A stretch of 64,000 nt of DNA from Paenibacillus terrigena DSM 21567 (GTDB lineage: Bacteria; Bacillota; Bacilli; Paenibacillales; Paenibacillaceae): NCBI RefSeq assembly GCF_000374845.1, contig NZ_KB895415.1:62001-126000 (forward strand). Reading direction: 5' to 3'. How positions within the stretch are numbered: position 1 is the stretch's first letter; each line of letters opens with the position of its first letter. The notes under the pieces were generated by a model. That model made no database searches. It was not told the DNA's origin and saw nothing but the letters and a program-made list of their open reading frames with translations. Below, piece by piece: positions 2,309-16,042 of this stretch. The position numbers and the translations under genes were made by a program.

Positions 2309-2820
2309 TTATTCAGTTTACCATCTTGCGTAAAGACAAGGACATGTTCTGAATGATTGGACTGCGCATCATCAAATAGAGTCACGTGCCACAACTTCTC
2401 ATTGGAGAGATATTCAACTGCTTTTACGATAGGAATAGAACTGTTAAAGTGATTCAATGCTCTTGCAACGATATCTTCTGCCGTGATATCAGCGCCTTGC
2501 GGTGAATCTGCCTTTATCATTTCAATGCTCTTCACAGCAGCTTGACCTGGATATGAAGTTTCAATTTCGCCGTTAAATTCAACTGCAACTTTCGTTCCCA
2601 GTCCGTATTGTTTTTTCGTTCGCACCCAAATCGCTTCGCTCTGTGATGTATTGGCCGAGAAGGCTGTGACAAGCAGCTGATCTGGCTTATGTTTGACGAC
2701 ATATCCTATATATTGATGCACAACATCTGGGGATTCCTTGTCACTGCTCTTGCCTGGATGGACGCAACCCGATAAAAGAAGAAATAGCACGAACAATAAT
2801 GCCGTAGACTTTCGTTTCAT
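2305..2820 (-). CDS. DUF3221-domain lipoprotein
   Basis: 171 aa, secreted and lipid-anchored: the signal peptide ends in LLLSGC (Cys about 19). The middle (about 35-100) matches the DUF3221 pattern: IGYVVKHKPDQLLV, EAIWVRT, GTKVAVEFNG, SYPGQAAVKSIE, a small OB-like beta fold of unknown role. The C-terminal part (105-171) looks like a separate small alpha/beta unit. The start was moved to the MKRKST methionine because AGGGAG lies 6 nt upstream. Many Bacillota have such lipoproteins; no function is established. Confidence 0.75.
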   Translation of the reverse strand: MKRKSTALLFVLFLLLSGCVHPGKSSDKESPDVVHQYIGYVVKHKPDQLLVTAFSANTSQSEAIWVRTKKQYGLGTKVAVEFNGEIETSYPGQAAVKSIEMIKADSPQGADITAEDIVARALNHFNSSIPIVKAVEYLSNEKLWHVTLFDDAQSNHSEHVLVFTQDGKLNK

Positions 2821-2857
2821 ATCGTTCTCCCTGCCATCATCCAATCAACTGCACAAC

Positions 2858-3700
2858 CTAGATCTGGTAGTTATACTTTACTAAATAATTTGCAATGACT
2901 TGTTTGTCTTCATGCCACCATAAAATTGGTACTTCTCCAACTTTATTAAATCCTAATTTATTAGCTAATTGATTAGATGCATCATTGCCAGAATCACAAT
3001 CCCAATAAGGAATTAACTTACGTTGCCTACTTTTTATAATAAATTCCTGACACAGTGTAAAAGCTAGACCTTGATTCCTATAATCTGAAAGTGTAATGAT
3101 GTCTGGTTCAATATATCCTCCACCCAAATAAAAGGTGTTACATGCACTTACAAAACCTGATTCATTCAGAAAACAGTAGCCAATTGCTCTTTCAAGATAC
3201 ATCTCCGCAGAATCCCAAAGCAAAGAATACGAATGATCCATTTCCTGTACATATTTATCATATAACTGTGTATTCATTCTTGTTAATTGAGACGCTCCAG
3301 ACTGGACATGATGTTTATCAGGAACGATTGCCGTGTCACTTAAAATATAATGAGATCTTTTTAACTCAACCACATTATCATGTAATGGGGCTTTAATCGT
3401 CGAGATCCAAGAATCTGAAGAGAAATATAAATCATAAAAATGAGCGTGAGTATCGGGATTAGCTAAGAAATCAAGCAAGGATCGATTGAACGATAGATCT
3501 TGTTCGTCTCCAAATAGATAATACTTCCCGCCACGGCTAGCCACCAACCCAGCAGTTGGATGGTCCATATTATTAACAAAAATCCTTCCTAGTTGATTAC
3601 GATCAATAACAGATTGAACAAATACAAAAATGAACTCATGTTCTTTATGAGCTATAAGAGGAGTTATCTTATCGTACTCATTCGTTTTTAGTTCTATCAT
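2858..3700 (-). CDS. GNAT acetyltransferase (zwittermicin-resistance-like family)
   Basis: 280 aa. The sequence fits the GNAT_acetyltran family that includes zwittermicin A self-resistance proteins: an N-terminal all-beta half (about 1-130, with GLVASRGGKYYLFGD) and a C-terminal GNAT fold (about 150-275). The acetyl-CoA region is LSDYRNQGLAFTLC, followed by YWDCDSGNDASNQLANKLGF, where N, A and LGF form the usual final strand and helix. It is AT-rich compared with the genes further left, as is the whole stretch to 8 kb, which suggests acquisition. The substrate is unknown. The downstream gene (2305) has another base composition and is probably not part of the same unit. Confidence 0.8.
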   Translation of the reverse strand: MIELKTNEYDKITPLIAHKEHEFIFVFVQSVIDRNQLGRIFVNNMDHPTAGLVASRGGKYYLFGDEQDLSFNRSLLDFLANPDTHAHFYDLYFSSDSWISTIKAPLHDNVVELKRSHYILSDTAIVPDKHHVQSGASQLTRMNTQLYDKYVQEMDHSYSLLWDSAEMYLERAIGYCFLNESGFVSACNTFYLGGGYIEPDIITLSDYRNQGLAFTLCQEFIIKSRQRKLIPYWDCDSGNDASNQLANKLGFNKVGEVPILWWHEDKQVIANYLVKYNYQI

Positions 3701-3760
3701 TTTTATTATTCTTCTCCTCCAGCTATTTCGCCACTCAACACCTGTAATTCTAGGTTTAGG

Positions 3761-4033
3761 TTATTCAATTAATTCAATTTCAAAAAAATTTATAATTATC
3801 GAATAGATAATATATCCAAAAAATGTTGAAACATATAATATTATCGCCCATCGAATTATTTGTCTTATAGACCTTGGAAACTGATTGAGTTGTTTTGGGT
3901 TTTGGAATCCATTAACTGCATCATAATGCTTTATCACATCATTAAATCCTTGTCGATCGGAATCATCAGAAATATTACCAGGCTGAGTTGTATGAATGGT
4001 TTTATCTTCAAATGGGTTATATTTATATTCCAT
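3761..4033 (-). CDS. Hypothetical small membrane protein (last cassette of array)
   Basis: 90 aa. The N-terminal 55 residues are polar (starting EYKYNPFEDKT). One predicted membrane segment near the C-terminus (WAIILYVSTFFGYIIYSIII, about 61-80) is followed by a short tail. GGAGG lies 7 nt before the ATG. I do not recognise a family. It is the leftmost of the single-gene units separated by structured repeats; a left-truncated repeat copy ends 39 nt upstream of its start. No repeat is visible after its own stop codon, so the array seems to end here. Confidence 0.6.
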   Translation of the reverse strand: MEYKYNPFEDKTIHTTQPGNISDDSDRQGFNDVIKHYDAVNGFQNPKQLNQFPRSIRQIIRWAIILYVSTFFGYIIYSIIINFFEIELIE

Positions 4034-4071
4034 GTCATACCTCCAGAAAAATATTTGTTTTACGGTCTAGT

Positions 4072-4156
4072 CTGCCTGATTCTACTTCTCCGAAATTCCC
4101 TCTTGGCGACCGAGGGTCTCGTTAGAGACCCGATGCTTGAATGCAGTGTTTATCGG
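4072..4156 (-). repeat. attC-like structured repeat, truncated copy 1
   Basis: This copy keeps the half with the hairpin GGGTCTC-gtta-GAGACCC and the GTTTATC end next to the stop codon of the hydrolase gene (36 nt away). The other outer arm is missing. The internal part GCCTGATTCTACTTCT matches the copy at 5125-5271. Confidence 0.55.
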
Positions 4157-4191
4157 ATGGGCACGCCTTCTTTGAAAAACTGATCTATCCC

Positions 4192-5088
4192 TTATTTATT
4201 TAAAATATAGTTCTCGAAATATTGTATTGGACCTGAGGTATTATCGGATAAGATACTTGTAAATACGGTAACTAATCGTCTTTCTTGATTAACAAATATA
4301 TATTGCCCTCTCATGCCTCCCATACCCATAGCATAGTATGTCTTATCTTCTTCACAGTCTACATTCTTACTATTCATTATCCACCAATGATATCCATACA
4401 AGGATTCTGCAACAGAATTATTATTTGTTGATTTTTCAATCCATCCAGCAGGAATCAGTTGTTTCGAATTCCATTCTCCATTTTGTGAATACAACACCCC
4501 AAATTTCAACATATCTTCTATCTTCATTCTCAAACCAAATCCACCTATTGCAATCCCTTGAGCATCCTGAAACCAATTGAAATCGTGAATACCTAAAGGT
4601 AAAAATAAGTTCTTTTTTGCAAAATCCACTGTGTTCATTTTGGTTGCCTTCTGCAATATAGCGCTAAGTAAATGTGAATTACCACAACTATAATTCATTT
4701 GCTTTCCTGGTTCTGATTCAACAGGTTGTTCTAGAATGAATTTCACCCAATCCTTTGTTGGAATCATAGCTTCATTTCCAGACCATTTCAAACCCGAGGA
4801 CATCGTTAATAGATGTCTAATTGTAATTCCGTTTTTTGTATCATCGATTTCGCTGAAATAATTTGAAATTGGAACGTCCTCATTCTCAATATACCCCTGT
4901 TGAATTGCAATTCCATACAATGCAGATAGAACACTCTTTGTAATTGAATTTACTTTGTGTTGTTTATCTTTCGTTTTTCGATTTCTAAAATATTCAAATA
5001 AAGTTGAGTTCTCTTCGTATACAACACAACTCTCAATTTTATCTTTCTTTATCGCTCTTTCGAGTTCATATAAGTTAATAAAGATGAT
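4192..5088 (-). CDS. Serine hydrolase, beta-lactamase/PBP-like, with non-canonical start
   Basis: Serine hydrolase of the beta-lactamase (class C/PBP4*) superfamily. The nucleophile motif SITK lies upstream of the first TTG (4920), so any protein starting there would be inactive. The frame stays open to 5103 and has no ATG, GTG or TTG before the motif. AAAGGGGG lies 5 nt before an ATC codon at 5088, which is the start proposed here (298 aa; Ser about 48, Lys 51); the ATT at 5079 is an alternative. Further motifs are YSCGN (second catalytic Tyr) and GMGGMRGQYI in the place of the third box. The N-terminal ESCVVYEENSTLFEYF is typical of the family. No signal peptide is seen, so it is probably cytoplasmic. 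It could be a natural non-AUG gene or one that lost its start. Confidence 0.7.
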   Translation of the reverse strand: MIFINLYELERAIKKDKIESCVVYEENSTLFEYFRNRKTKDKQHKVNSITKSVLSALYGIAIQQGYIENEDVPISNYFSEIDDTKNGITIRHLLTMSSGLKWSGNEAMIPTKDWVKFILEQPVESEPGKQMNYSCGNSHLLSAILQKATKMNTVDFAKKNLFLPLGIHDFNWFQDAQGIAIGGFGLRMKIEDMLKFGVLYSQNGEWNSKQLIPAGWIEKSTNNNSVAESLYGYHWWIMNSKNVDCEEDKTYYAMGMGGMRGQYIFVNQERRLVTVFTSILSDNTSGPIQYFENYILNK

Positions 5089-5124
5089 ATCCCCCTTTCT
5101 GCTTTATTTATTGTGGGCCATTCA

Positions 5125-5271
5125 GATAACGTTACCGCATTCCCGACGGCCATTCCCCTTAGATAGAGCTCTTATCTAAGAGGAATGGCTGTGTCTACCT
5201 GATTCTGCTTCTTGAAATCCATCGGGAAGATCAAGGGGCGTATGCCCCGCAGCAGGAATGTATTGTTATCG
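5125..5271 (-). repeat. attC-like structured repeat, copy 2
   Basis: 147 bp. The outer ends GATAACG and TTGTTATC are complementary, followed inward by GCATTCC pairing with GGAATG. Inside are a hairpin with arms GCCATTCC / GGAATGGC (extended by CTTAGATA / TATCTAAG) and a GGGGC-gtat-GCCCC hairpin. It starts 13 nt after the stop at 5284 and ends 37 nt before the proposed start of the hydrolase gene. Confidence 0.7.
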
Positions 5272-5283
5272 GAAGTACCCTCT

Positions 5284-5859
5284 TCATCGAAATATCATAT
5301 CCGTGTCTTTGTTTCTTATTATCAATTCAATGCTTCCCTGAGTAGACCATTCGTCAAAATGTGTATGTCCTTCATCAGTATCACTTAGTTCCTTACAGAC
5401 CAATTCTGCTAGTCGAAGCCCTAATGAATTTGTACTCATTGAAATCAACTGCCCGCTAGATCGAATTGAATAAATATTTTTAAACTTCCATGCCTCATGC
5501 ATACGATCATTTTTTCTTTCCTGTGATGTCTTTAAGTCATAATTGCCTACAGTATTTGCTTTATATATTCTTTTTCTAATATCTGCAAAGTCACTAAAAC
5601 TTAATGGATTGCTTGTACCATGAAAGAAAGCAAAATCAGATCCTTCTTCAGCATTTCTGAAAAGGTAAACGATCAAGCTCTTTTCTCTTTGGACTAAATT
5701 AAATAAGCCAGCAAGAGTAATCAAGGACTTACTGTCTCCATAGAGATTCATCTGTGTATCGGGATATATTGAGTTCTCTAATCCGATTTCTTCCTGGGAT
5801 AGATAGATTATGCTTAGACTTTTTTGATTAATCGTTAGCTTTTTAACGAGGACTTCTAT
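5284..5859 (-). CDS. Hypothetical protein, non-AUG start proposed (cassette)
   Basis: No family recognised. The frame holds an ATG at 5749-5751 giving 155 aa, but it is open much further. The best ribosome site (GGAGGG, 5866-5871) is followed 6 nt later by an ATA codon at 5859, giving 191 aa starting xEVLVKKLTINQKSL. No ATG, GTG or TTG lies between, and no ribosome site precedes the inner ATG. The protein is soluble, without a signal peptide or membrane segment, and rich in polar residues; SSGQLISMSTNSLGLRLAELV looks like a beta-hairpin plus helix. Distance to the repeat upstream (38 nt) equals that of its neighbours, which supports the longer form. Translation from ATA would be weak; loss of the start is the alternative. 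Confidence 0.55.
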   Translation of the reverse strand: MEVLVKKLTINQKSLSIIYLSQEEIGLENSIYPDTQMNLYGDSKSLITLAGLFNLVQREKSLIVYLFRNAEEGSDFAFFHGTSNPLSFSDFADIRKRIYKANTVGNYDLKTSQERKNDRMHEAWKFKNIYSIRSSGQLISMSTNSLGLRLAELVCKELSDTDEGHTHFDEWSTQGSIELIIRNKDTDMIFR

Positions 5860-5896
5860 GCGTATCCCTCCATTAAAATGGTATTTAGGGGATTTC

Positions 5897-6062
5897 TTAT
5901 TACGTTTCCGTGATCACGACGTCCCACCGACTTAAGAGAACGAACTTGAGTGGCCGCGATGCGGTTAGTCGGTGCAGATGTGTCCCGGATATCACTTCCT
6001 CGACTTACCTTCCGGGACCGATGGGGCTTGCCCCCCCCGATGCGTGAACACATTATTATCTG
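5897..6062 (-). repeat. attC-like structured repeat, copy 3
   Basis: 166 bp, between the stop of the AAA kinase (22 nt) and the next start (38 nt). The outer arms GTGATCACG / CGTGAACAC pair with one mismatch. Internal hairpins: CACCGACT / AGTCGGTG, GTCCCGG / CCGGGAC, and GGGGC-ttg-CCCC. The outline is the same as copy 4, with different arm sequences. Confidence 0.72.
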
Positions 6063-6083
6063 ATGCAACATGACATCTTCGAA

Positions 6084-6584
6084 TCAGCTTTCAGAGAGCA
6101 CTTGGTTAACTATACCCTTAATTTTTTCCGTTACCTCAGAAGGAGAAATTGAACTTGTATTAATTAATGGCATACTAGGATTAAAAGCCGTTGCTGCATT
6201 ATTCAATATCCAGTCGTTAAATTCTTTATGGTCATTTATGAGCTCGTCAGACCAACCTCTTGCTTGCAACCTTAATTCTCTCGTTCTATCATCACAATAT
6301 AGACCAATAAAGTAAGGTTTAAAGTAATCTTTCAAGTCCACTTCATCGTACTCTCCAGGCATAAAAGTCCCACATAAAATTGTAGTTCGACCATTCAAGC
6401 TTATTTGTTTGGCAAAATGGATCCAAACATTTTTAATTAAAGTCCATTCATTTAATGGGCCATATATTGCGTCCAAATCCAGTGTTATGTATTCAGCACA
6501 CTGTTTAAGAAGTTCGGGGATAATAGTAGTTTTTCCTGATCCACTTGCACCTGTAATTAAGAATATTGGTTTTCTCTCAGTCAT
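6084..6584 (-). CDS. P-loop kinase-like ATPase (AAA/shikimate-kinase-like), cassette
   Basis: 166 aa cytoplasmic P-loop protein. Walker A GASGSGKTT is at about residues 12-20, followed by a short core and a LID-like arginine segment (DDRTRELRLQARGW). Size and layout are like gluconate/shikimate-type or nucleoside kinases and small resistance phosphotransferases. A hydrophobic strand and TTILCGTFMPGEYDE follow in mid-protein. The substrate cannot be told. The ATG has GGAG about 10 nt upstream. The gene is a single unit between two copies of the structured repeat, AT-rich, and not co-linear with any operon I know. Confidence 0.7.
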   Translation of the reverse strand: MTERKPIFLITGASGSGKTTIIPELLKQCAEYITLDLDAIYGPLNEWTLIKNVWIHFAKQISLNGRTTILCGTFMPGEYDEVDLKDYFKPYFIGLYCDDRTRELRLQARGWSDELINDHKEFNDWILNNAATAFNPSMPLINTSSISPSEVTEKIKGIVNQVLSES

Positions 6585-6641
6585 TGATATTAGTCTCCAA
6601 TCGGAATAATTAATGGTTTTAATAGTGATTCATATTGTTTC

Positions 6642-6803
6642 AGCTAACGTTTCCGTGTTCACGACGCCTCACCACCTAAAGACCTTTAGGTCCGGTCGCG
6701 ATGCGATTAGGTGGTGCAGGTGTGTCCCGGCAATCGCTTCTTCATCGTTACTTCCGGGACCGAGGGGGCTTGTCCCTCGATACGTAAACACATTGTTATA
6801 TGA
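6642..6803 (-). repeat. attC-like structured repeat, copy 4
   Basis: 162 bp. The outer arms CTAACG... and ...GTTATATG plus GTGTTCACG / CGTAAACAC pair with one mismatch. Internal hairpins: CACCACCTAA / TTAGGTGGTG, TCCCGG / CCGGGA, and CGAGGG / CCCTCG. It lies 36 nt after the GNAT pseudogene stop and 58 nt before the kinase start. Confidence 0.75.
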
Positions 6804-6838
6804 AGGATCGGCCTTCTTTGGTATACCGACGCTTTCAT

Positions 6839-7292
6839 TTACATCCCTTCTTTTCCTTCCAAGTTCAATACGTGACTTGCTTTTTGTATTCCTTCTGCTC
6901 TTGAGAACCCAATATTTCTGTACAACTTATCAGCAATTGGATTCTCAGTATATAAAGTTAATGTCCGAAAATACTTCTTTGCTTCCTCAATGATCATCCC
7001 TAAGAGTTTCTTTCCTACGCCACTACTTCTGTGCCTCGGTAAAACATATAAGTGTCTAACTCGACCTACATCAATAAGATCCAGATAAGGATCAATATTC
7101 AAACCACCTATCCCAATGACTTCCTCATCAATTATTGCTACAAATAAAGATTCTCCGAATCTATTAAATCTGTTACTTCTCCGTGTATTCATCATGTAAT
7201 TTCTGAACCATTTTATATCCCTCAGATATGCTATCGTCTAACAACAAATTCAAATTGTACTGTTCGAGATAAGTAACTCTTTCAATAAGCAT
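6839..7292 (-). pseudogene. GNAT acetyltransferase, disrupted by a frameshift
   Basis: A GNAT of about 150 aa is split between two frames. The first frame starts at ATG 7292 (AGGGTG 9 nt upstream) and runs MLIERVTYLEQ...VQKLHDEYTE to a stop at 7173. The second frame continues with SNRFNRFGESLFVAI, GVGKKLLGMI (acetyl-CoA loop RSSGVGKK) and PIADKLYRNIGF to 6839. Removing one base near 7173-7185 (in GGAGAAGTAAC) joins them into a normal GNAT with the DEY...NRF...GESLFVA segment seen in relatives. It could be a natural pseudogene, a sequencing error or a recoding site; no typical slippery heptamer is visible. It is one unit of the repeat-separated array. Confidence 0.7.
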
Positions 7293-7334
7293 CGTAGTAT
7301 TCACCCTCATTTGATACATGGTTTGCCGTTCTTT

Positions 7335-7396
7335 CATATAACGTTCTTGTGTTCCTGAGCCCGAAAGGCTTAAAGGAGGCAAACAGTGTTATACGA
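7335..7396 (-). repeat. attC-like structured repeat, short copy 5
   Basis: 62 bp with the same outer ends as the long copies (ATATAACGTT...GTGTTATACG) but only one small inner hairpin (GAGCC-cgaaa-GGCTT) and the pair GTTCCT / AGGAGGC. It lies 27 nt after the stop at 7423 and 43 nt before the start at 7292. A large size range with conserved ends is typical of integron attC sites. Confidence 0.65.
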
Positions 7397-7422
7397 CGGA
7401 ACTTTGAGATACTCTCAAAAAC

Positions 7423-7962
7423 TTACTTTTCTGTATTATCAAATCGAAAAATCAGTTTATGTCCGTCAAAAGTATCTCCATACAATTCAGCATAATTCTT
7501 TTTACTATAATTAGAAACGGTCTTCCGCCAAAATCTTTGCCCTATAATGTTTCTTTCAGATGGGTTGGTAAACAATTCCCATCTCCCTTTAAATTGTTCA
7601 AACACTTTAATAGCTGCCTGTTCTGCTATACCTTGACCTCTATAAGGGCGGAGTAAAAAGAATTCATTAACAAAATAATCAATTCCCTCTGCACAATGTG
7701 GGGGTGTAGCAATGAGAATAAACCCCGCTGGTTTATCTTCTACTAAAATTAAATAGGGGTATAAACAATCTGGTTTTTCCCACCAAATATTCTGAACTTC
7801 ATATTGATCACTCAATTTTCTAAAGTCATCACTATCTTCGTAAATTCCATGAATATTTGGAAATCTGACATAATGTTCTGATAAATCGTATAAATAGAGA
7901 GGGTATAAGTTTTTTATTATATATGCTTCGTTTTTACTGGTTAGTTGCACCTTAATCTTCAT
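7423..7962 (-). CDS. GNAT-family acetyltransferase (cassette)
   Basis: 179 aa. A GNAT fold covers most of the protein. The acetyl-CoA pyrophosphate loop is LLRPYRGQGIAEQAA (about 105-119), preceded by the beta-4 strand YFVNEFFLL, and the final part NPSERNIIGQRFWRKTV is the usual last helix and strand. The substrate is unknown. AAAGGAG is 7 nt before the ATG. The gene is low in GC and sits between two structured repeats (27 nt after its stop, 38 nt before its start), so it behaves like a cassette. The homologous fold is common among antibiotic-modifying and protein-acetylating enzymes. Confidence 0.82.
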   Translation of the reverse strand: MKIKVQLTSKNEAYIIKNLYPLYLYDLSEHYVRFPNIHGIYEDSDDFRKLSDQYEVQNIWWEKPDCLYPYLILVEDKPAGFILIATPPHCAEGIDYFVNEFFLLRPYRGQGIAEQAAIKVFEQFKGRWELFTNPSERNIIGQRFWRKTVSNYSKKNYAELYGDTFDGHKLIFRFDNTEK

Positions 7963-7999
7963 AAATTAGCTCCTTTGAAAATAATCACTTCGTTCTGTC

Positions 8000-8060
8000 G
8001 TATAACGTCTTTTTTACGAACTTCGCATTACACACAATCTATGCTATATCAGCGAACCCC
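8000..8060 (-). repeat. attC-like structured repeat, incomplete copy 6
   Basis: One outer end (TATAACGTC, 8001-8009) and an inverted repeat TTCGC / GCGAA can be seen, but the other conserved end (GTTAT) is missing. It lies between the bifunctional resistance-like gene (stop at 8115) and the GNAT start at 7962 (38 nt). It may mark the right edge of the array. Confidence 0.45.
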
Positions 8061-8114
8061 CTCCAGCATTACACATTTCACCATCGGTTCTGCTCCTACG
8101 CCATACCATCATAA

Positions 8115-9455
8115 TCAACAAGCAGAACTGTTTCCTACCTGAATCTCACCTAACATATACCGAATAAACTCACTCAACTCCGGTAACTCCACTTCACTTC
8201 GATCGATTTTCCCGTTATATTCGTCAAGGCATTGCTGAACCAAAGCTTGATAAGGCTGAGGTAGTACTTGTAAGCCCCACGCTCCACCTTCGCGCTTCGA
8301 TGCGATGATGCCTTCCCGGATAAAATAGAGCACCCTGCACAAATTCAATGTCACGTACATTGGCGTTAGATACGCTGGCGGATTATGGATGATATCTTCC
8401 GCTGCCTCTTCGACATCATGCAGGATGGACGCGAGGTATAGCTCCCGATCAATCGGCTCATACAACTCATGTAAAGGAGTACCGTACAATGCAATCCCTC
8501 GATGGTAGGCAACCATCAGCTGCGCAGCCATATCGTTATCTTCGTAACCTCCGCACAGATAGTTCTCATCTGTCAGATAGCGCTCCCGGTGGTAATCCGA
8601 GTAATGAAATTCGACAGGCGTCGGATAGACGAAGGATTTCAAGTGATCTTCCAATAGGATACTGAACTCGAATCCACGTGCATTCGGCAGCCCATCGTGC
8701 ACCGATAGCGCCAATTGGGCGATTCGCTTGTTATTTTCCATTGTCAATTTCTCTCTGACTACCACAAGACAATCGACATCGCTTTGAGACGGATTGAAGC
8801 AGCCCATCGCCAGTGATCCATGCAAATAAATACCCGCTAGATTATCCTTCAACTCATCCAGAAACAACGCAACGATGTTGTCCAAATAGACTTGCATTTT
8901 CAGTTCGTCCAGCGATACACGCATAATCTGGTTATCTCGATATTCGCCATCGAACAATTCATGTGCAGTGAGCACTTTAACCTTTTTGAACCCGCATTTC
9001 TCATAGCTTCGAATGGCCCTTGTATTCCATGTCTGAGGATCGATATAAACGTCAGCAGCCCCCTGCTCCGTCAACAAATACCGAACAACCGATTTTAATG
9101 CCGTCGTCCCAATCCCCGAATCCCAATAGTCGGTCTCGCCGATGAATAGATCTACGCCGTATTGAGGCTGGTCTGATTTCGCTTCGTATAATTCTATTTC
9201 ATCCTCTTGTAGCGGATAGAATTGCACATACCCAATCGCTGTATTGTCCCATTCCATGATCCAAGGCGTAACGTCATGCTCACCTCTCGCCCGCGAAGCG
9301 TATTTGGCAATAATCTGCTCCATCGTATACCGCTTACTGGGCCCTTCGATATAGTGCAGCAATTTCTCATCATTCAACCATTTGAACATGAACGCATAAT
9401 CTTCCTCGTGATCCCGCATTCTCCGTATGGAAAGTTGCCCCTCTGCTATAAACAT
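8115..9455 (-). CDS. Bifunctional GNAT acetyltransferase / aminoglycoside-type nucleotidyltransferase fusion
   Basis: 446 aa, two enzymes in one chain. Residues about 1-180 are an AAC(6')-like GNAT (LSIRRMRDHEEDY, GYVQFYPL, YGVDLFIGE, DSGIGTTALKSVV, NTRAIRSYEKCGF). Residues about 190-446 are a nucleotidyltransferase of the ANT(3'')/ANT(9) type with GSLAMGCFNPSQSDVD (about 213-228) holding the metal-binding SDVD, then a helical C-terminal (DUF4111-like) domain. Such enzymes acetylate or adenylate aminoglycosides; whether this one confers resistance is not known. AGAGGTG precedes this ATG by about 7 nt; the in-frame GTG at 9464 has no ribosome site. GC content returns to the genomic norm here. 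Confidence 0.85.
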   Translation of the reverse strand: MFIAEGQLSIRRMRDHEEDYAFMFKWLNDEKLLHYIEGPSKRYTMEQIIAKYASRARGEHDVTPWIMEWDNTAIGYVQFYPLQEDEIELYEAKSDQPQYGVDLFIGETDYWDSGIGTTALKSVVRYLLTEQGAADVYIDPQTWNTRAIRSYEKCGFKKVKVLTAHELFDGEYRDNQIMRVSLDELKMQVYLDNIVALFLDELKDNLAGIYLHGSLAMGCFNPSQSDVDCLVVVREKLTMENNKRIAQLALSVHDGLPNARGFEFSILLEDHLKSFVYPTPVEFHYSDYHRERYLTDENYLCGGYEDNDMAAQLMVAYHRGIALYGTPLHELYEPIDRELYLASILHDVEEAAEDIIHNPPAYLTPMYVTLNLCRVLYFIREGIIASKREGGAWGLQVLPQPYQALVQQCLDEYNGKIDRSEVELPELSEFIRYMLGEIQVGNSSAC

Positions 9456-9479
9456 CGATTTCACCTCTTCTCGAAGACA

Positions 9480-9917
9480 TTATTGATCGCCGAATACCCC
9501 TAAATCCTTCTTCAAATAATAATGCGTGTGCCTTCCCGCGTTCTCAATCACCCCATAGACTTCAAAGCCCTGCTTCTTGTAAAAGTCCAACGCCTGAAAG
9601 CTTAACGTATCCAGCTTCATAAATTCGCACCGTTTCTCTCTCGCCAGCTTCTCAGCCTCCGCGAGTAGCTTCTTCCCATACCCCGCTCCACGACAGGCAG
9701 CATCGACAAAAAGGTACTGGATCTCCATCCAGTTCCAGCAAATCTCGCCGATGATCCCGCCATAGATTTGACCTGCTTCATCCTTCAGGAACAGGTTCAC
9801 CTCTTGGTACCTCCCCTTCAGATCGTCAGGAAAATGCATCATGTTAAATTCGTACATTTTGTCACATACGTATGCTTTATCATCCCTGTTCGACGCATTC
9901 GTAATCGTTAATTCCAT
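9480..9917 (-). CDS. GNAT-family acetyltransferase
   Basis: 145 aa single GNAT domain. Key parts: EIQYLFVDAACRGAGYGKKLL (split over about 66-86; acetyl-CoA loop CRGAGYGKK), KLDTLSFQALDFYKKQGF near the end and a basic last strand HTHYYLKKDL. Similar to small-molecule acetyltransferases of Bacillota. GAGGAAG is about 8 nt before the ATG. It is followed closely (24 nt) by the fusion gene, so the two may be cotranscribed. The substrate is unknown. Confidence 0.82.
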   Translation of the reverse strand: MELTITNASNRDDKAYVCDKMYEFNMMHFPDDLKGRYQEVNLFLKDEAGQIYGGIIGEICWNWMEIQYLFVDAACRGAGYGKKLLAEAEKLAREKRCEFMKLDTLSFQALDFYKKQGFEVYGVIENAGRHTHYYLKKDLGVFGDQ

Positions 9918-9941
9918 CCGTCTCTTCCTCTCATGACTCTT

Positions 9942-11219
9942 CTATTCGCTTAACCCTTCTTCCGGATACATTCGCAGCACGAGATTTCTTGCTGTCAATG
10001 AGCTGTCCTCGCCCTCTTTGTTTTTGACTGGCGCGAACTCCTTCTCCCGCTCCACCCGCAGAACCGTCATCGCTTCCGCAAGCGGGAAAAAATCAAATAT
10101 AAACCGTTCCAGCTTGTAACCATTCGGCGCATCAGGAACGATGATTTCTCTAGCAGCATTCATATGCGGGATTGCCTTGGATGCTACGTGAAATGGGATC
10201 TGTGTATCCGCATGCTGCGCGATAAAATCATAACGGAACATATGAATCGAGATATTCGCCAGCGCGTAAGCCAGATCCCCTCGATCATTACGCTCGTTCA
10301 ATACATGTTCGGGAAATTCCGTATATTCTACAATGGCCGGGCGCTGATTCCACAAACAGACCATTCCGACCTTCTCATCAGGCCGCTCCTTGAATACCAC
10401 CTTGGATGCAATCGGATGATGCTGGAGGTCCGCCATCCCAATAAATACTGGGTCTGCAACTTGTATAAGCGCATTATCCACGTTGTAATAGAAGAGCCAC
10501 GTCAATCCTCTCTTCTCCATATCCTCTAGCGCACCAGAACGCTTGAATGAGGCAAAACATTCCCCATTCCCACTCGGGGCAAAATGAAGCTCTGAAGGCG
10601 ACGCGAGCAACAGCTTGCCCTCATGGTCCATTGCAGGCATCGTATTCTGCTCCAAGAAGAAGCAATCTTCCGCGGGATAGCCGAAAAACTGATGCGATTC
10701 AAAGAATTGAACGGTGTCCTCATGATTCTCCGGACTTGTCATCAGGTACCATGGAATAATACGGCCAACCCGCAGCGATAGCTGCAGCAGCCGTTCAGCT
10801 TGAAGCTGGAACAATGATTTATGTGACGGCAAGCCGATATCGAACGTTCCTTTGGGTCCTGCATGTCCAAGCCTACTCCCTTGACCCCCCGCTACCACGA
10901 TAACGCCAATTTTGCCGTCTCGAAGCAATTCTAAGCCGCGCTCCTCATACTGCTCATAAACTTCTTTGGATAACGTATCCACGTCAAAATAAGGGATAGG
11001 CGAGATATGCTTTCCCTGCCCCATACTCGACGTTGATCGATTTAGATAGGCTTGCGCAAGCTGATCAAAATCAACACGCAGCACTTGTGCTGCAAGCTTT
11101 TGCTTTTCTTCAACAGATAACTCCTTCATACATCGTACAACATGGTCTTGCTGATAGGCATGAAGAAGACTTTCGGCTTGATTCACGAGATTCTCCATCG
11201 CTTCACGCTCACTTGTCAT
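9942..11219 (-). CDS. UDP-sugar pyrophosphorylase, eukaryotic (UAP/UDPGP) type
   Basis: 425 aa cytoplasmic nucleotidyltransferase of the UDPGP family. The Rossmann core carries the nucleotide signature VVAGGQGSRLG (about 108-118) and PKGTFDIGLP. NVDNALI in mid-protein fits the metal/UTP-binding Asp. The C-terminal part has SFYK-like lysine region PNGYKLERFIFD. The family makes UDP-GlcNAc, UDP-GalNAc or UDP-glucose from UTP and a sugar-1-phosphate. Bacteria normally use GlmU or GalU, so a eukaryote-like enzyme is less common but known in Bacillota. The start has GGGGG 9 nt upstream. The gene begins 15 nt after the SDR gene ends, so both are probably one transcript. Confidence 0.85.
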   Translation of the reverse strand: MTSEREAMENLVNQAESLLHAYQQDHVVRCMKELSVEEKQKLAAQVLRVDFDQLAQAYLNRSTSSMGQGKHISPIPYFDVDTLSKEVYEQYEERGLELLRDGKIGVIVVAGGQGSRLGHAGPKGTFDIGLPSHKSLFQLQAERLLQLSLRVGRIIPWYLMTSPENHEDTVQFFESHQFFGYPAEDCFFLEQNTMPAMDHEGKLLLASPSELHFAPSGNGECFASFKRSGALEDMEKRGLTWLFYYNVDNALIQVADPVFIGMADLQHHPIASKVVFKERPDEKVGMVCLWNQRPAIVEYTEFPEHVLNERNDRGDLAYALANISIHMFRYDFIAQHADTQIPFHVASKAIPHMNAAREIIVPDAPNGYKLERFIFDFFPLAEAMTVLRVEREKEFAPVKNKEGEDSSLTARNLVLRMYPEEGLSE

Positions 11220-11234
11220 TGTTCAAAACCCCCG

Positions 11235-11930
11235 TCATCCCACACGTGGACATGTAAGTGATTTGCCATTATCCTTCGTCGTAAGTCGCAATATATAGGG
11301 AACTGCAGCACGAGACCACGCCTCCGGTGTTGGAGAACCGGACATATATTGCGGCCCGCAAGCCGCTAGCATGGACGTCTGAATACCTCCGCCGGGATCT
11401 AAGGCGACAACGCCTATCGATTCAGGCAATTCCAAAGCCATCGACTGCGTCAGCCCTTCAATGGCAAATTTGGATGCACAATACGGCGCAAGCTCGGCTT
11501 CGCCTTCTCTCCCCCAGCCGGAGCTCATATTGACGATCATTCCCCGCTGCGCATCAATCATCGCAGGCACGAAGGATCGAATAACATTCACAGTACCGTT
11601 CACATTAATACGCATCACATCCGTGAATTCTTCGTCCGAAATCGACCAGATCGGTGCATTCCTGTTCACGATGGACGCATTATTGATCAGCAGATCTGGT
11701 GCACCGAACGCATTTAGCACTTGATCCGCCCATCGCGATACCGCTTGCGCATCCCCAACATCAACCGCTTCAAAATCATGATTCGCGAACTCCACTCGAA
11801 GTTCCTCTACTTTATTTATCGAACGCCCACAACCATGGACGGTCCACCCCAGCTCATCGAACCGATCGACCATAGCCCGACCTAATCCTTGCGTCACACC
11901 CGTAATAACGACTCTTTTGGCCGTATTCAT
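11235..11930 (-). CDS. Short-chain dehydrogenase/reductase (SDR)
   Basis: 231 aa classical SDR. NAD(P)-binding motif TGVTQGLG (about 11-18), NNAS (about 87-90), catalytic Ser in VNMSSGWG (about 137), and Tyr-x3-Lys as YCASK (about 153-157). The C-terminal PGG loop and a shortened end are seen; the usual substrate loop is present. It oxidises or reduces an unknown alcohol or ketone. It lies between a GNAT gene and the UDP-sugar pyrophosphorylase on the same strand with short gaps (about 15-20 nt), so it is likely part of a four-gene unit from 12878 down to 9480. Confidence 0.88.
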   Translation of the reverse strand: MNTAKRVVITGVTQGLGRAMVDRFDELGWTVHGCGRSINKVEELRVEFANHDFEAVDVGDAQAVSRWADQVLNAFGAPDLLINNASIVNRNAPIWSISDEEFTDVMRINVNGTVNVIRSFVPAMIDAQRGMIVNMSSGWGREGEAELAPYCASKFAIEGLTQSMALELPESIGVVALDPGGGIQTSMLAACGPQYMSGSPTPEAWSRAAVPYILRLTTKDNGKSLTCPRVG

Positions 11931-11948
11931 AACTTCATCTCCTATTTC

Positions 11949-12878
11949 CTATTCCGATAACGGCGGGATCTCCATTTTCTGCACTTCCAGCAGACCTGGC
12001 ACAAATCCCAGCTTCACATACACCGACTCCGCATCATTTCCCTGCATCACATATAACCGGAGCAGAGGATACGAGCCTTTCAGTTCCGATAGCGCCCGCT
12101 GGAGCATCAAGCTAGCAAGCCCGCGTCCCCGATACGCTGGAATGACACCGATCGAATACACAGCGGCATAATCCCCCTGCAACCCGATACGGCAATTCGC
12201 AACCAGTTCATTCGTCTGCTTGTCATAGACGAGCGTCGAGGCGTTCATCAACACTTCATTCGTATAATTCGGGTCTACGGACGGCGTATGATCTTCCTTC
12301 GCCAGTTGCCCTCTCCGTGTTGCATCAAGACCGTGAGCAAAGCTAGCGTACTCGCACGCAGTAATCTCTTGTTCATTTACATAGCGATAGGATCCATCAC
12401 TTTTCTCTTCCCGCTGCAGCGTTTCGATCCGAAATTCTTCCCCCCACACCACGTCAAAATGTTCCGTCGGTCGCTGCATCCAGCGGCATCGGAACGCATC
12501 CGGCCAGAAGCCCGCGCAGGCGAACAGATCGACTTGATCCGGGAGCACTTCAAAAGCTTTTATCGGTTGACTTCGATCCGACCATGCAAGCAATAATTGC
12601 TTAAGCCCTTTCATTACTTGAGGTGCATCATTGAACGGCGGGATGAAGAACAAATAGTAAATCCGATTCGGACCCATTCGTACCCCGCCTACTCTGGCAT
12701 CCCCTTTACAAATCCAATAGGCAGGGCTTCCCGAGGTAACATACGTCTCCTCTCTAAAAAAGCCATTATACGCCATGTTATAATATACGGAGCAAAAAAT
12801 CCCCCATTCCTCAGGGTCCGCACTCTGAATGGAATAATCGCATGATAATGTATATATTTTGATATTTTCAGACACCAT
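11949..12878 (-). CDS. Two-part GNAT acetyltransferase
   Basis: 309 aa. The C-terminal GNAT (about 160-305) has YSIGVIPAYRGRGLASLML (acetyl-CoA loop RGRGLA), then NDAESVYVKLGFVPG. The N-terminal half (1-150) is another alpha/beta unit with weak GNAT features (FFIPPF, LLLAWSD), so the protein may be a tandem GNAT with a degenerate first domain, as in mycothiol-synthase-like enzymes (inference). GGAGG is about 10 nt before the ATG. It heads the minus-strand group GNAT-SDR-pyrophosphorylase-GNAT. Confidence 0.8.
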   Translation of the reverse strand: MVSENIKIYTLSCDYSIQSADPEEWGIFCSVYYNMAYNGFFREETYVTSGSPAYWICKGDARVGGVRMGPNRIYYLFFIPPFNDAPQVMKGLKQLLLAWSDRSQPIKAFEVLPDQVDLFACAGFWPDAFRCRWMQRPTEHFDVVWGEEFRIETLQREEKSDGSYRYVNEQEITACEYASFAHGLDATRRGQLAKEDHTPSVDPNYTNEVLMNASTLVYDKQTNELVANCRIGLQGDYAAVYSIGVIPAYRGRGLASLMLQRALSELKGSYPLLRLYVMQGNDAESVYVKLGFVPGLLEVQKMEIPPLSE

Positions 12879-12987
12879 GGTATGTATTCCTCCCTCAATA
12901 TCTCACCGTTCGAGCCATTCGAATGATGAAATTCTATGAAATCATGGTAAAATAGAACCGTTAGAACCAGAAAGGCGGAGAAAACGA

Positions 12988-13743
12988 ATGGAAATGACAT
13001 TTATTATCAAGCCCACTACATATACAGCCTTCGAGAACGAAATCGAACACATGGACAAATGCAAAGAATGGGGCCTTTTATCCGACAAAGCCGTGAAAAC
13101 CAAGACCTTCTACTACAAAGGAAGCGGCATGAATCACCCTTGTGACATTATCGGTTACGTCGATGACTTGACTGCCGTCATTCAACTAGGCCCAGAGCAG
13201 CTGCACTGCATTCACCCCTCCTATCTAAAAGAGATGCAGGCTTCCACCTTCGGATCGAGAGTCACAGCAGCGACGGATAAATCCAATGAACCCGAACAAG
13301 AGACTGTCACCGATCAAGTTGAACCAGAACAGCAGTCGCAAGAACCGGTTGCACAGGTAGAGCCCGAAGCAGAAGCAGACGAAACACCTCAAGTCGAGGT
13401 AGCTGCAACCAAGACCAAGGCTAAAAAGGGTAAGGCACCTAAGCTAGAACTCCCGGAAGAGAAAGTAAAAATGACCGCTACCGTCCAAGAATTCACCACG
13501 GTGCCGAATAACTTCTCCGATACGGAAGATGAAGTCATCATTTATGAAGCGGTAGCCATTATCGATCCGCCACTCGAAGTCGGCGTTGCCTGGTCAAGTC
13601 ATAGTGCAACACTGAAGAAATTCGAGCTGGAAGTTGGGGACACGATTACGTTTGATGCCAAAATCGTTGCCAAGAAGCTAACCAAACACCCTGTACCGTA
13701 CAAAATCAACAATCCCGCGAAAATCCAGAAAACCACATCATAG
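12988..13743 (+). CDS. Hypothetical protein with acidic linker and conserved-looking ends
   Basis: 251 aa, not recognised. Residues 1-80 form a compact unit (a FYYKGSGMNHPCDIIGYVDD segment, then IQLGPEQLHCIHPSYLKEM, two Cys). Residues about 95-155 are a Glu/Gln/Pro-rich linker ending in a lysine-rich patch (KTKAKKGKAPK). Residues 155-251 look like an OB-like beta domain (VKMTATVQEFTTVPN, ELEVGDTITFDAKIVAKKL). There is no signal peptide. Layout is that of a nucleic-acid- or protein-binding adaptor (inference only). AGGCGGAG precedes the ATG, and a good terminator follows. It is a single-gene unit. Confidence 0.65.
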   Translation: MEMTFIIKPTTYTAFENEIEHMDKCKEWGLLSDKAVKTKTFYYKGSGMNHPCDIIGYVDDLTAVIQLGPEQLHCIHPSYLKEMQASTFGSRVTAATDKSNEPEQETVTDQVEPEQQSQEPVAQVEPEAEADETPQVEVAATKTKAKKGKAPKLELPEEKVKMTATVQEFTTVPNNFSDTEDEVIIYEAVAIIDPPLEVGVAWSSHSATLKKFELEVGDTITFDAKIVAKKLTKHPVPYKINNPAKIQKTTS

Positions 13744-13749
13744 AAATCA

Positions 13750-13783
13750 AGAGAGTATGCGCGTGCATGCTCTCTTTTTCTTT
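13750..13783 (+). terminator. Rho-independent terminator
   Basis: AGAGAGTATGC pairs with GCATGCTCTCT (one G-T pair) across a 4-base loop, followed by TTTTTC. It ends the hypothetical gene at 13743. Confidence 0.8.
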
Positions 13784-13873
13784 TGCCTAGAGATACTTCC
13801 ATTCTAAACCTATTGAACACACGCTCATAAGGAAAAAATAAATATAATCAACTCTACACATCATACCGTTAGC

Positions 13874-13912
13874 AAAAAACGGCCCCTTCCCGTTCGCAAC
13901 GAGAAGAAGCCG
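13874..13912 (-). terminator. Terminator of the methyltransferase gene
   Basis: Read on the minus strand, CGGCTTCTTCTCGTT pairs with AACGGGAAGGGGCCG (several G-T pairs) around a 3-base loop, then TTTTTT. It lies about 95 nt after the stop at 14008. Confidence 0.7.
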
Positions 13913-14007
13913 CACTATTCTTTCCTATATCCTATTACTCATCCATCACGCCATATGCCCGATTTTTCTATATGAATCGATCATTTTTTATACAAATTCA
14001 AGAAAGG

Positions 14008-14820
14008 CTAACTCTTCCGGCCAATATAGAGCAAATGCGATGAGATGCCCAGTATAGATGGATCAGCAGCGTATCGGTAGATGAGCGCCATCATCTGATT
14101 AAATTCCTCTTCCCCACGGCTGCGCCAATCGTTCCAGTTCTCCTCGGTGAACCGTCCGCCAATGCTGGACGACCCTATCAGCTCGATCGTCTCGAACCCG
14201 CTAGATTCCATGAACGGCTTAATCTCTTCCAAGGGATAGAAATATGCACCTGTGAAGCGCCCCTCATCTTGGTGGTTAAAAATCCCTGTCTCCATAAAAG
14301 ACTTGATCGAGTCCATATGGTCGAGCGGCTTCCACATGTCTGGGTATAATAACGCCGTCTGCAGCTTGCGAATTCGTGTCATCAAGGCGATGAATACCAC
14401 ACCGCCCGGTTTGGTTACACGATATAACTCCTTCATCGCAGCCATTCGGTCTGCATCCGTCTGTAAATGATATAAAGGGCCGAGCATAAGCACTGCATCA
14501 TAATATTCTGACGGGATATCCTCCAGATTTCTCGCATCACGTACATGGAATCCGTCGAATTGGTCATGAAGTTCGAATTCCCTCGCCTTTGCTTCAGCTT
14601 GCTCTACAACCCGCGGCGTCAAATCCGTTAATGTCACTTGATAGCCCTGTCGTGCGATTGCCATGGCATATTTGCCCGGGCCTGCTCCGTTATCCAATAT
14701 TGTGCCGGTCTGTGGAAGATACTTCTGGATATAATGCCAATTCACCAAATATTCGAGGGGCTCACGATCCAATCTTCCCCACTCGTCAAAAGCCGAATAA
14801 TACCGAATAATCTCATTCAT
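14008..14820 (-). CDS. Class I SAM-dependent methyltransferase
   Basis: 270 aa. Rossmann-type methyltransferase: motif I ILDNGAGPGKYAMAIA (about 41-56), an acidic residue after TLTDLTP, motif II VRDARNL, and VLMLGPLYHL (about 106-115). The cytoplasmic enzyme methylates an unknown small molecule or protein using SAM. The GPLYHL segment is typical of a group of Bacillota UbiE/COQ5-like enzymes. AGGAGG is 7 nt before the ATG. It is divergent from the ABC exporter operon across a 238-bp gap. Confidence 0.85.
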   Translation of the reverse strand: MNEIIRYYSAFDEWGRLDREPLEYLVNWHYIQKYLPQTGTILDNGAGPGKYAMAIARQGYQVTLTDLTPRVVEQAEAKAREFELHDQFDGFHVRDARNLEDIPSEYYDAVLMLGPLYHLQTDADRMAAMKELYRVTKPGGVVFIALMTRIRKLQTALLYPDMWKPLDHMDSIKSFMETGIFNHQDEGRFTGAYFYPLEEIKPFMESSGFETIELIGSSSIGGRFTEENWNDWRSRGEEEFNQMMALIYRYAADPSILGISSHLLYIGRKS

Positions 14821-14994
14821 CGCAAGTCCTCCTTATTTGGAAATTTTATCTATTATATCTTCGGCGCCGCCCCACGACAACCTAAATTTTACTAATTTCA
14901 AAAAATATAGCTCGAATCTGACATTCCAACTTCATTCTCCTTTCATGAGCGAAAACCCCGGTGTTAAGCCAAATATCTTCTTATAAATTTATGA

Positions 14995-15024
14995 TTGACA
15001 TCCTGCATCTGGAAATGATAATAT
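14995..15024 (+). promoter_or_regulatory. SigmaA-type promoter of ABC exporter operon
   Basis: TTGACA (14995-15000) with TAATAT at 18 bp (15019-15024), or GATAAT at 16 bp. The start codon is about 35 bp downstream. Confidence 0.6.
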
Positions 15025-15058
15025 CTTCTTCCTGTCACTTGACCAAGAATGGAGGGTT

Positions 15059-16042
15059 ATGGAAGTGATCACATTAAACGGAATCAGTAAATCGTTCCTG
15101 GTGGCGAAGCGCCCATCAGGTATCAAGCATGCGGTTAAATCGCTATTCCACCGAGAATACACGAACGTGGAAGCGCTGCGTGACATCTCATTTTCTATTG
15201 CTCCCGGTGAAATTGTCGGTTATATCGGGCCTAACGGCGCCGGCAAATCGACCACCATCAAAATTATGAGCGGCATTCTCGTACCAGACAGTGGAACCTG
15301 CACAATTCATGGGTATACCCCATGGCTAGACCGCGTGCCGTATGTCAAGAACATTGGCGTCGTATTCGGACAACGCTCGCAGTTGTGGTGGGATGTCCCT
15401 GTCATGGATTCGTTCGAGCTGCTGCGCGATATCTACAATATTCCGCAGGCAGAATATCGCGACAATCTTACACTGCTCGTCGACACACTGGATCTTGGCA
15501 GCATCATTCACACCCCGGTGCGGCAGCTCAGTCTTGGACAACGTATGCGATGCGAGATTGCCGCTTCACTCCTGCACAGTCCGAGCATTTTGTTCCTCGA
15601 CGAACCAACGATCGGCCTCGATGCCGTCTCGAAGATCGCCGTGCGTCATTTTATCAAGACCATCAATAAAGAAAAAGGCGTCACCGTCATTCTCACCACA
15701 CATGATATGAATGATATCGAAGCCCTTGCAGATCGCATCCTGCTCATCGGCAAAGGAACGCTCCTCTATGACGGCAGTGTCCAAGGTCTTCGCGGTCAAT
15801 TCGGGACACGAAGGACCATCACGGTAGAATATCGCGAAAATGCGAACCCCCTCGATATTCCCGGTGCATCGCTCCTCTCATGGACCCCTGATCGTGCAAT
15901 CCTTAGTGTAGATACGGAACAAATTCTGATCTCAGACGCCATTACTCGTCTATCCTCACAAGTCGAACTGCTAGATGTCACCATCGATACCCAGCCAATT
16001 GAGGATATCATCGTACAGATGTACAAGGAGTATGAGCTATGA
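15059..16042 (+). CDS. ABC transporter ATP-binding protein (ABC-2 exporter)
   Basis: 327 aa. Walker A GPNGAGKST (57-65), Q-loop region VFGQRSQLWWD, signature LSLGQ (157-161), Walker B ILFLDEPT (177-184) and H-loop TTHD. The insert FGQRSQLWWDVPV after the Q-loop and the C-terminal extension of about 90 aa are typical of the YbbL/NatA-like group with DUF990-type permeases. It powers export or import by the two membrane partners that follow. Start: ATG with GGAGGG only 3 nt away; a GTG 6 nt further is possible. Stop overlaps the next ATG by 4 nt. Confidence 0.92.
   Translation: MEVITLNGISKSFLVAKRPSGIKHAVKSLFHREYTNVEALRDISFSIAPGEIVGYIGPNGAGKSTTIKIMSGILVPDSGTCTIHGYTPWLDRVPYVKNIGVVFGQRSQLWWDVPVMDSFELLRDIYNIPQAEYRDNLTLLVDTLDLGSIIHTPVRQLSLGQRMRCEIAASLLHSPSILFLDEPTIGLDAVSKIAVRHFIKTINKEKGVTVILTTHDMNDIEALADRILLIGKGTLLYDGSVQGLRGQFGTRRTITVEYRENANPLDIPGASLLSWTPDRAILSVDTEQILISDAITRLSSQVELLDVTIDTQPIEDIIVQMYKEYEL

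Follow-up and report, generated by a model that had tools for sequence, protein, structure and literature searches.

An integron-like gene-cassette array in Paenibacillus terrigena and its relatives, probably served by a tyrosine recombinase other than IntI

The DNA analysed here, a stretch of 64,000 nucleotides from Paenibacillus terrigena DSM 21567 (contig NZ_KB895415.1, positions 62,001 to 126,000; hereafter the window), contains, between about 8025 and 4072 on the minus strand, an array of gene cassettes that can be read directly from the sequence and its open reading frames: an attI-like site is followed by five units, each consisting of a gene and a site resembling the attC sites of integrons. 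Comparison with related genomes leads us to conclude with high confidence that the array works like an integron, and the system to which it belongs is very probably an integron-like cassette system run by a recombinase that is not IntI. The system falls outside the IntI integrons as these are defined, because it failed the tests for four defining features, namely the IntI additional domain, a TIGR02249 score above the cut-off together with a place in the IntI clade, extrahelical bases in the sites, and the integron core boxes.

A covariance model (R1) built from 21 elements of other loci, two of them from another array of the same genome and none from the window, detects five sites in the window, all on the minus strand, with E values from 2e-21 to 3.5e-5. 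These sites match the repeats that an earlier note, made from the sequence alone, had placed at 7335-7396, 6642-6803, 5897-6062, 5125-5271 and 4072-4156; the repeats are thus real, and the note was right to read the layout as one of integron cassettes. It had, however, counted six cassettes and taken a further element at 8000-8060 for an attC site, where we find five cassettes, the last with a truncated site. The sequence at 7997-8025 reads GAAGTTCGTAAAAAAGAC^GTTATAC (the caret marks the break) and resembles the motif found in relatives just after their recombinase gene, so this element is attI-like and the gene at 8115-9464 is therefore flank. The core triplet of the attI-like site, TAC, is also the left-arm triplet of the cassette 1 site (Table 1).

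The cores in the window are partly decayed, with an exact triplet match within one of four cassettes and in the pair formed by the attI-like site and the first cassette. The right core of the cassette 3 site reads GTAA, and the cassette 5 site, read by eye, has a left arm and no right arm, so that the array end is broken. The acetyltransferase gene of cassette 2 is frame-broken across 6839-7382, the open frame at 6839-7195 and a fragment at 7173-7382 lying in two frames; both copies of this gene in the sister genome G001 are likewise broken, but at other points. The cassette 4 gene had no Pfam match at E<=0.001, and Rfam gave zero matches in the window at the gathering threshold. No recombinase of the linked family described below was found in the window, and a genome-wide Phage_integrase search places none there either, in agreement with the earlier remark that no integrase is in view.

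Table 1. Features of the cassette array and its flank, in window coordinates.
Feature	Positions	Strand	Evidence
attI-like insertion site, array start (GAAGTTC..AAGAC^GTTATAC)	7997..8025	-	Closely resembles the motif just after the recombinase gene in L017 (contig C5 of the same genome) and in relatives
Cassette 1: GNAT acetyltransferase gene 7423-7962 and attC-like site 7332-7399	7343..8006	-	Pfam Acetyltransf_1 6.2e-08; R1 37.2 bits
Cassette 2: GNAT gene 6839-7195 and attC-like site 6638-6806	6649..7342	-	R1 100.7 bits
Cassette 3: P-loop kinase-like gene 6084-6584 and attC-like site 5893-6066	5904..6648	-	Pfam AAA_18 8.2e-07; R1 95.9 bits
Cassette 4: gene of unknown function (open frame ending 5284) and attC-like site 5120-5276	5131..5903	-	R1 92.5 bits
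Cassette 5: beta-lactamase-fold hydrolase (open frame ending 4192) and truncated attC-like site	4072..5130	-	Pfam PF00144 3.6e-25; R1 29.1 bits for 4017-4160
GNAT fused to an aminoglycoside-adenylyltransferase-like protein, adjoining the array; flank, not cassette	8115..9464	-	Pfam AadA_C 2.3e-25, Acetyltransf_8 6.1e-25

The sites share a left part with the consensus TTCNNNTAAC-A-nn-(A/G)TATTCACGC and a right part with the consensus GCGTGAATA-caa(g)-AAC^GTTANNNGAAA, an inner set of hairpins lies between the two parts, and the distance from left to right core falls mostly in the 80s or the 130-180s. The R''-L''-L'-R' pairing arms are present, as seen in sequence logos and covariation, with compensatory double changes in 12 of 20 pairs in long sites and 8 of 29 in short sites. 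Counted per cell, double and single-sided changes number 67 vs 6 in the long type and 33 vs 9 in the short type. These counts indicate that the stems are kept by compensatory changes, and the predominance of double over single-sided changes would fit selection on DNA rather than on an RNA with G-U pairs. Core boxes in integrons follow the consensus RYYYAAC / GTTRRRY. In a set of 147 sites from a search for which GTTA was a requirement, RYYYAAC fits 34, GTTRRRY 31 and both 12, and the R' box mostly reads GTTANNNGAA (119 sites), which bears out the doubt already voiced about the core consensus.

The two ends of one integron cassette match since they were joined in the circle, and a site within an array is a hybrid. 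Over 21 loci, the array strand has 223 elements. Detection relied on TAAC and GTTA and made no use of the triplets under comparison. In 128 of 180 units, the variable triplet that follows the opening GTTA is identical to the left-arm triplet of the unit's own site, as against agreement of the two arms within one site in 31 of 217 (shuffles: mean 12.4, maximum 23). Five pairs of shared cassettes, two between genomes and three within arrays, have an inside identity of 0.92-0.99 and an identity of 0.45-0.56 in their 200-bp flanks (random 0.50-0.53), and the shared stretches have their edges exactly before GTTA and after AAC, with the break at C^GTTA. Nested shared pairs with a common start were detection artefacts and were not used. 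Cassette 2 of the window lies after an attC-like site here and, at two loci of G001, directly after AAGTTCGTAAATA(T/A)GAC or a near match; the core is CTTA in one of these copies and the right-hand site is lost or cut in both. A GNAT cassette that stands mid-array on contig C5 of the window's genome is, with 89% protein identity, placed directly after the attI-like site in genome G125. Taken as sequence comparisons, these observations show that the unit is a gene with its own site, that units are exchanged as such, and that the same cassette is found after an attI-like and after an attC-like site.

An open reading frame of at least 50 codons is contained in 175 of 183 unit bodies, and the longest frame runs along the array direction in 149. 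Array cargo falls into 151 clusters; a Pfam scan of 60 cargo proteins drawn from 135 returned Acetyltransf_1 in six, NUDIX in three and single matches to APH, chloramphenicol phosphotransferase-like, shikimate kinase and other families. At locus L132, a 287-base cassette with no convincing gene is present in three near-identical copies (starts 2685, 2972 and 10168, reverse strand), two of them in tandem.

The elements might instead be a passive mobile repeat or terminator family lying between genes, the cassette look being a by-product, and a separate mobile repeat family had been offered earlier as an alternative. The presence of sites in genomes where no recombinase was detected would suit this view, but the matching ends belong to the gene unit and not to the repeat, the shared stretches stop at the site cores, and in the five pairs no repeat moved without its neighbouring gene. 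The sites moreover keep one orientation, with the stop codon a median of 36 nt ahead of the left arm and the next start codon a median of 50 nt past GTTA. We consider a passive repeat hardly credible. Chance repeats were rejected on the R1 matches in the window and the strand-biased site counts relative to shuffles given below.

Homology between the window and the sister genome G001 covers both sides of the array, at 8141 and above and at 2325 and below, and between these shared flanks lie 5.8 kb in the window vs 12.3 kb in G001, with differing gene sets. A gene order conserved among related strains without gain or loss, which the earlier note had named as the finding that would speak against its reading, is thus not what the two genomes have. 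The G001 version of the locus (L182, about 2760-15060) consists of tightly packed cargo-like genes (GNATs, NUDIX, phosphatases, kinase) and is possibly an array that lost its attC-like sites. At E<=0.1, R1 has 55 matches in the window's genome, on many contigs, 16 in G001 and 55 in a further genome, G002. Further site clusters of the window's genome lie on contigs C2, C7, C8, C12, C14 and C17 (L186-L192) and have no open-frame linked recombinase.

The distant recombinase that the earlier note proposed to look for is present in the window's genome as one broken copy. On contig C5 (L017) an array begins directly after a broken tyrosine recombinase gene of the same orientation, which is split by stops into two pieces scoring 221.9 and 186.3 bits, vs 142.8 for the XerD-like gene of the genome; this is the only place in that genome that matches the recombinase family above the XerD-like level. 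Between this gene and the first cassette lies a motif very similar to that at window 7997-8025. Because the sole recombinase of the linked family is broken, the arrays of this genome are probably inactive, barring a partner that acts in trans.

From relatives, 20 loci were fetched, chosen among the strongest TIGR02249 matches whose contigs extended far enough on either side of the gene. In all 20 of these loci, which come from genomes of the family Paenibacillaceae, a tyrosine recombinase gene lies upstream on the array strand, and in the loci inspected a motif like GAAGTTCRTAAATAAGAC^GTTA, recognised as attI-like by comparison, lies downstream of the gene and is doubled in several. Each locus has 3-20 sites on the recombinase strand and 0-2 on the opposite strand, vs 0-4 per shuffle, within the 18 kb at most that were searched; in genome G210, the listed same-strand model matches extend up to 48 kb from the recombinase. 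Locus L019 (G271) was set aside, its gene being XerD-like.

Across 394 genomes of the family, sites are found in 299, representing 17 of 19 genera. TIGR02249 matches at E<=1e-30 in 65 of these genomes and in none above its cut-off, with stretches scored apart, and a profile of the linked family at E<=1e-70 matches in 135 genomes from 13 of 19 genera, many of the listed rows being partial or containing stops. Sites are present in 134 of the 135 recombinase-bearing genomes vs 165 of the 259 others (Fisher p 3e-19). In plasmids (best 5000 records) and phages (1272 records), no match to the recombinase reached 60% identity. Comparison of the genomic sequences shows a recombinase of one clade that lies upstream of the array and on its strand.

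XerC and XerD act on the dif-like modules known as pdif modules, and the cassettes could conceivably be moved by host XerC/XerD or a phage integrase on such modules, with the linked recombinase as a bystander. The window's genome has other open-frame tyrosine recombinases and the linked one only in broken form, as this explanation would have it. We nevertheless regard it as very improbable, given the same-strand linkage throughout the fetched loci, the attI-like motif downstream in the loci inspected, the co-occurrence of recombinase and sites across genomes, and the character of the sites, which at about 60-220 nt with conserved stems differ from dif.

The linked recombinase has about 366-415 residues and consists of an N-terminal domain with the motif IRxIPGRxW...KxWxxP, followed by SAM-like and catalytic domains. 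The best fold match of the full recombinase model in the PDB is IntI4 (2a3v, E 2.2e-15), and among named relatives the recombinase profile matches Paenibacillus sp. NFR01 best, with 65% identity to the first sequence of the profile. The XerA-like model NF040815 scores 207-226 bits in 15 Paenibacillaceae proteins, five of which lie above its cut-off of 220. TIGR02249 matches all 15 whole proteins at 203-223 bits, under its cut-off of 265, vs 507.5 bits for IntI1 and 489.1 for a Vibrio IntI; the relatives in G669, Spirochaetota and Rufibacter score 217, 201 and 206 bits.

These TIGR02249 matches, together with the integron-type layout, the attI-like site, the cassette boundaries and the cargo, raise the possibility of an ordinary, highly divergent IntI integron, or the remnant of one in the form of a cluster of attC sites lacking an integrase (CALIN), that happens to be in Bacillota. 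The insertion that characterises IntI is, however, absent. All 13 Paenibacillaceae proteins that were measured have 66-67 residues between GKG and HxLRH, vs 106-108 in all nine measured IntI, of which only IntI1 is annotated as such, the others being assigned by this same spacing and, where included, the tree. The remaining two of the 15 Paenibacillaceae proteins were missed by the spacing pattern, and alignment shows all 15 to be without the insert of about 41 residues. Passages of two published studies describe the IntI additional domain, around patch III, as defining and necessary (PMC9668308) and as essential (PMC8138268). The main text of PMC9668308 nowhere uses the word HARP.

Phylogeny places IntI in one clade of its own (100/100) and the linked recombinases outside it in another (98/93, or 95/91 with UBA5388). 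The tree with 98/93 support holds 62 of 66 recombinase rows, with L056, L110 and L126 left out and L049, whose motif falls outside the pattern, dropped. In an approximately unbiased (AU) test, on a tree that additionally leaves out four distant recombinases of the window's own genome, a sister relationship of the recombinases to IntI has p 0.5, their union with a Bacteroidota group 0.345 and a union of all three 0.252. One clade with IntI is thus not rejected, and the branching order between the linked recombinases and IntI is not settled by these trees.

The sites also differ from those of IntI. In 13 loci the 8-base L stem is unbulged 98 times (shuffle 3.4) and bulged 8 times (shuffle 11.8), with no extrahelical base in L'', and nine IntI loci, scanned on both strands with control sites not verified singly, give the reverse, 4 unbulged (shuffle 1.4) and 26 bulged (shuffle 6.8). 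In nine IntI chromosome loci and a 1.6-kb IntI1 plasmid stretch, R1 detects no sites. A passage of PMC2727003 counts extrahelical bases among the features shared by every known attC substrate, and that source reports that attC x attC deletion by IntI1 was abolished when both sites were without them; attI x attC insertion by IntI1 still took place, with a loss of merely 6.2-fold, so missing extrahelical bases alone do not rule out an IntI-type reaction. On the whole of this evidence we judge a divergent IntI integron unlikely. The integron-cassette layout proposed in the earlier note stands, and a plain canonical CALIN is not supported. In relatives the system has a recombinase of its own, which fails the integron-integrase tests.

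Related arrays were also found outside the family. Among 398 genomes drawn from the phylum, which we take to be Bacillota, 24 have sites, 20 of them outside the family with best sites at 45-59 bits, and alignments from four loci show both arms and the stems. In G669, from another family of the phylum, six sites follow an open-frame recombinase on the same strand (L193, 935-8782), and the triplets match in 5 of 5 cases; this array is cleaner than that of the window. Triplets match in 1 of 1 and 0 of 1 cases at two other non-family loci, and no recombinase of the linked family was found at one of these two, L195. The recombinase is also present in a metagenome-assembled genome of Spirochaetota, together with a single site scoring 43.3 bits. 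A separate array type is seen in Rufibacter sp. SYSU D00344 (L068, 9350-17510), with sites of about 57 bases and a patchless recombinase with a longer N-terminal part. There, 8-mers match in 5 of 6 consecutive pairs, the sixth pair having another site between. With a model built from Rufibacter (R2), Rufibacter itself yields 43 sites, Adhaeribacter 27 and an uncultured Pontibacter 10 (all Hymenobacteraceae), and five of eight Bacteroidota genomes yield none. A generic scan of 80 named loci flagged the Rufibacter locus alone, being insensitive enough to miss L049 and the IntI loci as well.

In the integron-like reading that we prefer, an XerA/IntI-like tyrosine recombinase with an extra N-terminal domain would be the agent, inserting circular cassettes at the attI-like site after its own gene and moving cassettes among attC-like sites. 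Excision would yield circles, the site would be read as a folded single strand, and the N-terminal domain, or an uneven spacer, may stand in for the contacts that the IntI insertion makes with extrahelical bases.

The N-terminal domain is tentatively HARP-like. Eight of 15 isolated domains, of about 85 residues, match Pfam HARP (PF07443) at E<=10, weakly and with a best value of 4.9e-4, and the Spirochaetota relative L055 reaches 26.2 bits, above the cut-off of 25; whole-protein scans of IntI1 and the Vibrio IntI gave no HARP match. The nearest structure is the N-terminus of T4 UvsW (Z 6.5 over 62 residues, root-mean-square deviation 2.2), a protein that carries a HARP domain according to a passage of PMC4666394. 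XPB has Z 5.1, the unrelated eIF1 scores nearly as high as UvsW with Z 5.3, and the HARP domain of SMARCAL1 has Z 3.7 with 25% identity. A structural Z under 8 can be chance, and all values here are 6.5 or less, so the HARP likeness is a lead. A Foldseek search with the domain returned nothing at E<=0.001, and a search against solved structures gave 4o66 at E 0.4.

A broader reading would make these arrays a second kind of integron, spread over at least three phyla (Bacillota, Bacteroidota and Spirochaetota) and either separately invented or predating the IntI insertion. In the form seen in Bacillota and Spirochaetota, the folded site would then be read by a HARP-like structure-specific DNA-binding domain, which would take the place of two features absent together, the IntI insertion and the extrahelical bases. 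We give this reading a little less than an even chance, the lower standing being due to HARP matches that are patchy and under the cut-off in Paenibacillaceae domains.

Several observations weigh against these interpretations. On rescanning ten Paenibacillaceae domains, seven matched HARP at 12.7-20.0 bits, under the cut-off, and three did not match, and whole-protein scans of L020, L026, L031, L028, L193, L068 and a Chryseobacterium relative gave no HARP match. The G001 counterpart of the window's array contains no R1 site even at E<=10, which the model leaves unexplained. Outside the C5 array, the within-unit triplets of the window's genome match in 8 of 21 cases, for 27 sites hand-picked from 55 model matches, and these sites are therefore regarded as decayed. 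Some of the elements detected for the triplet comparison may be chance. The recombinase is partial or has stops in several of the 20 fetched loci, and 165 genomes have sites and no recombinase match at E<=1e-70.

If the system works as proposed, gene-cassette capture would be common in a large group of soil bacteria, as indicated by the proportion of family genomes with sites, and surveys that filter on the IntI insertion would miss such arrays. It would also become testable whether integrons originated once or repeatedly and what purpose the IntI insertion serves. The cargo, with its acetyltransferases and single APH- and chloramphenicol-phosphotransferase-type genes, is a possible unsurveyed reservoir. 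Integrons, known for gathering antibiotic-resistance genes, are reported to be very rare in Bacillota, and the relevant passage of PMC9024848 lists for Firmicutes one complete integron (Limnochorda pilosa) and few CALIN. PMC2426708, in its passage on selecting intI by the additional domain or patch, reports none among 103 Firmicutes genomes. Among the matches listed from the openly licensed literature, we found no report of integrons in Paenibacillus; a passage of PMC4909258 describes a saliva cassette protein that is 39% identical to a protein of Paenibacillus assamensis.

Among known systems, the IntI integrons are the closest in layout, sharing a recombinase gene with an adjacent attI-like site, single-gene cassettes, imperfect-palindrome sites of the R''-L''-L'-R' form, boundaries in the R' core, and varied cargo including GNAT and NUDIX proteins. 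They differ in that the system described here lacks the IntI insertion and the extrahelical base in L'', has an additional N-terminal domain and a core of GTTANNNGAA rather than GTTRRRY, and has its recombinase aimed at the array in the 20 fetched loci. The integrons of Treponema, likened here by description, also have intI transcribed towards attI and the cassettes, but are described as intI integrons in the passage concerned (PMC3607928). The window taken alone resembles a CALIN in being an array of at least two attC-like sites without an adjacent integrase, whereas its sites are not canonical attC and in relatives a recombinase is linked to the array. The SAM-like and catalytic domains align to the full length of the XerA-like model (NF040815) without interruption, but the recombinases here are linked to cassette arrays and an attI-like site and have the extra N-terminal domain. 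That domain recalls the HARP domains of SMARCAL1 and the T4 UvsW N-terminus through its weak Pfam matches and UvsW-like fold; those domains are fused to a helicase motor, and here the domain is fused to a tyrosine recombinase.

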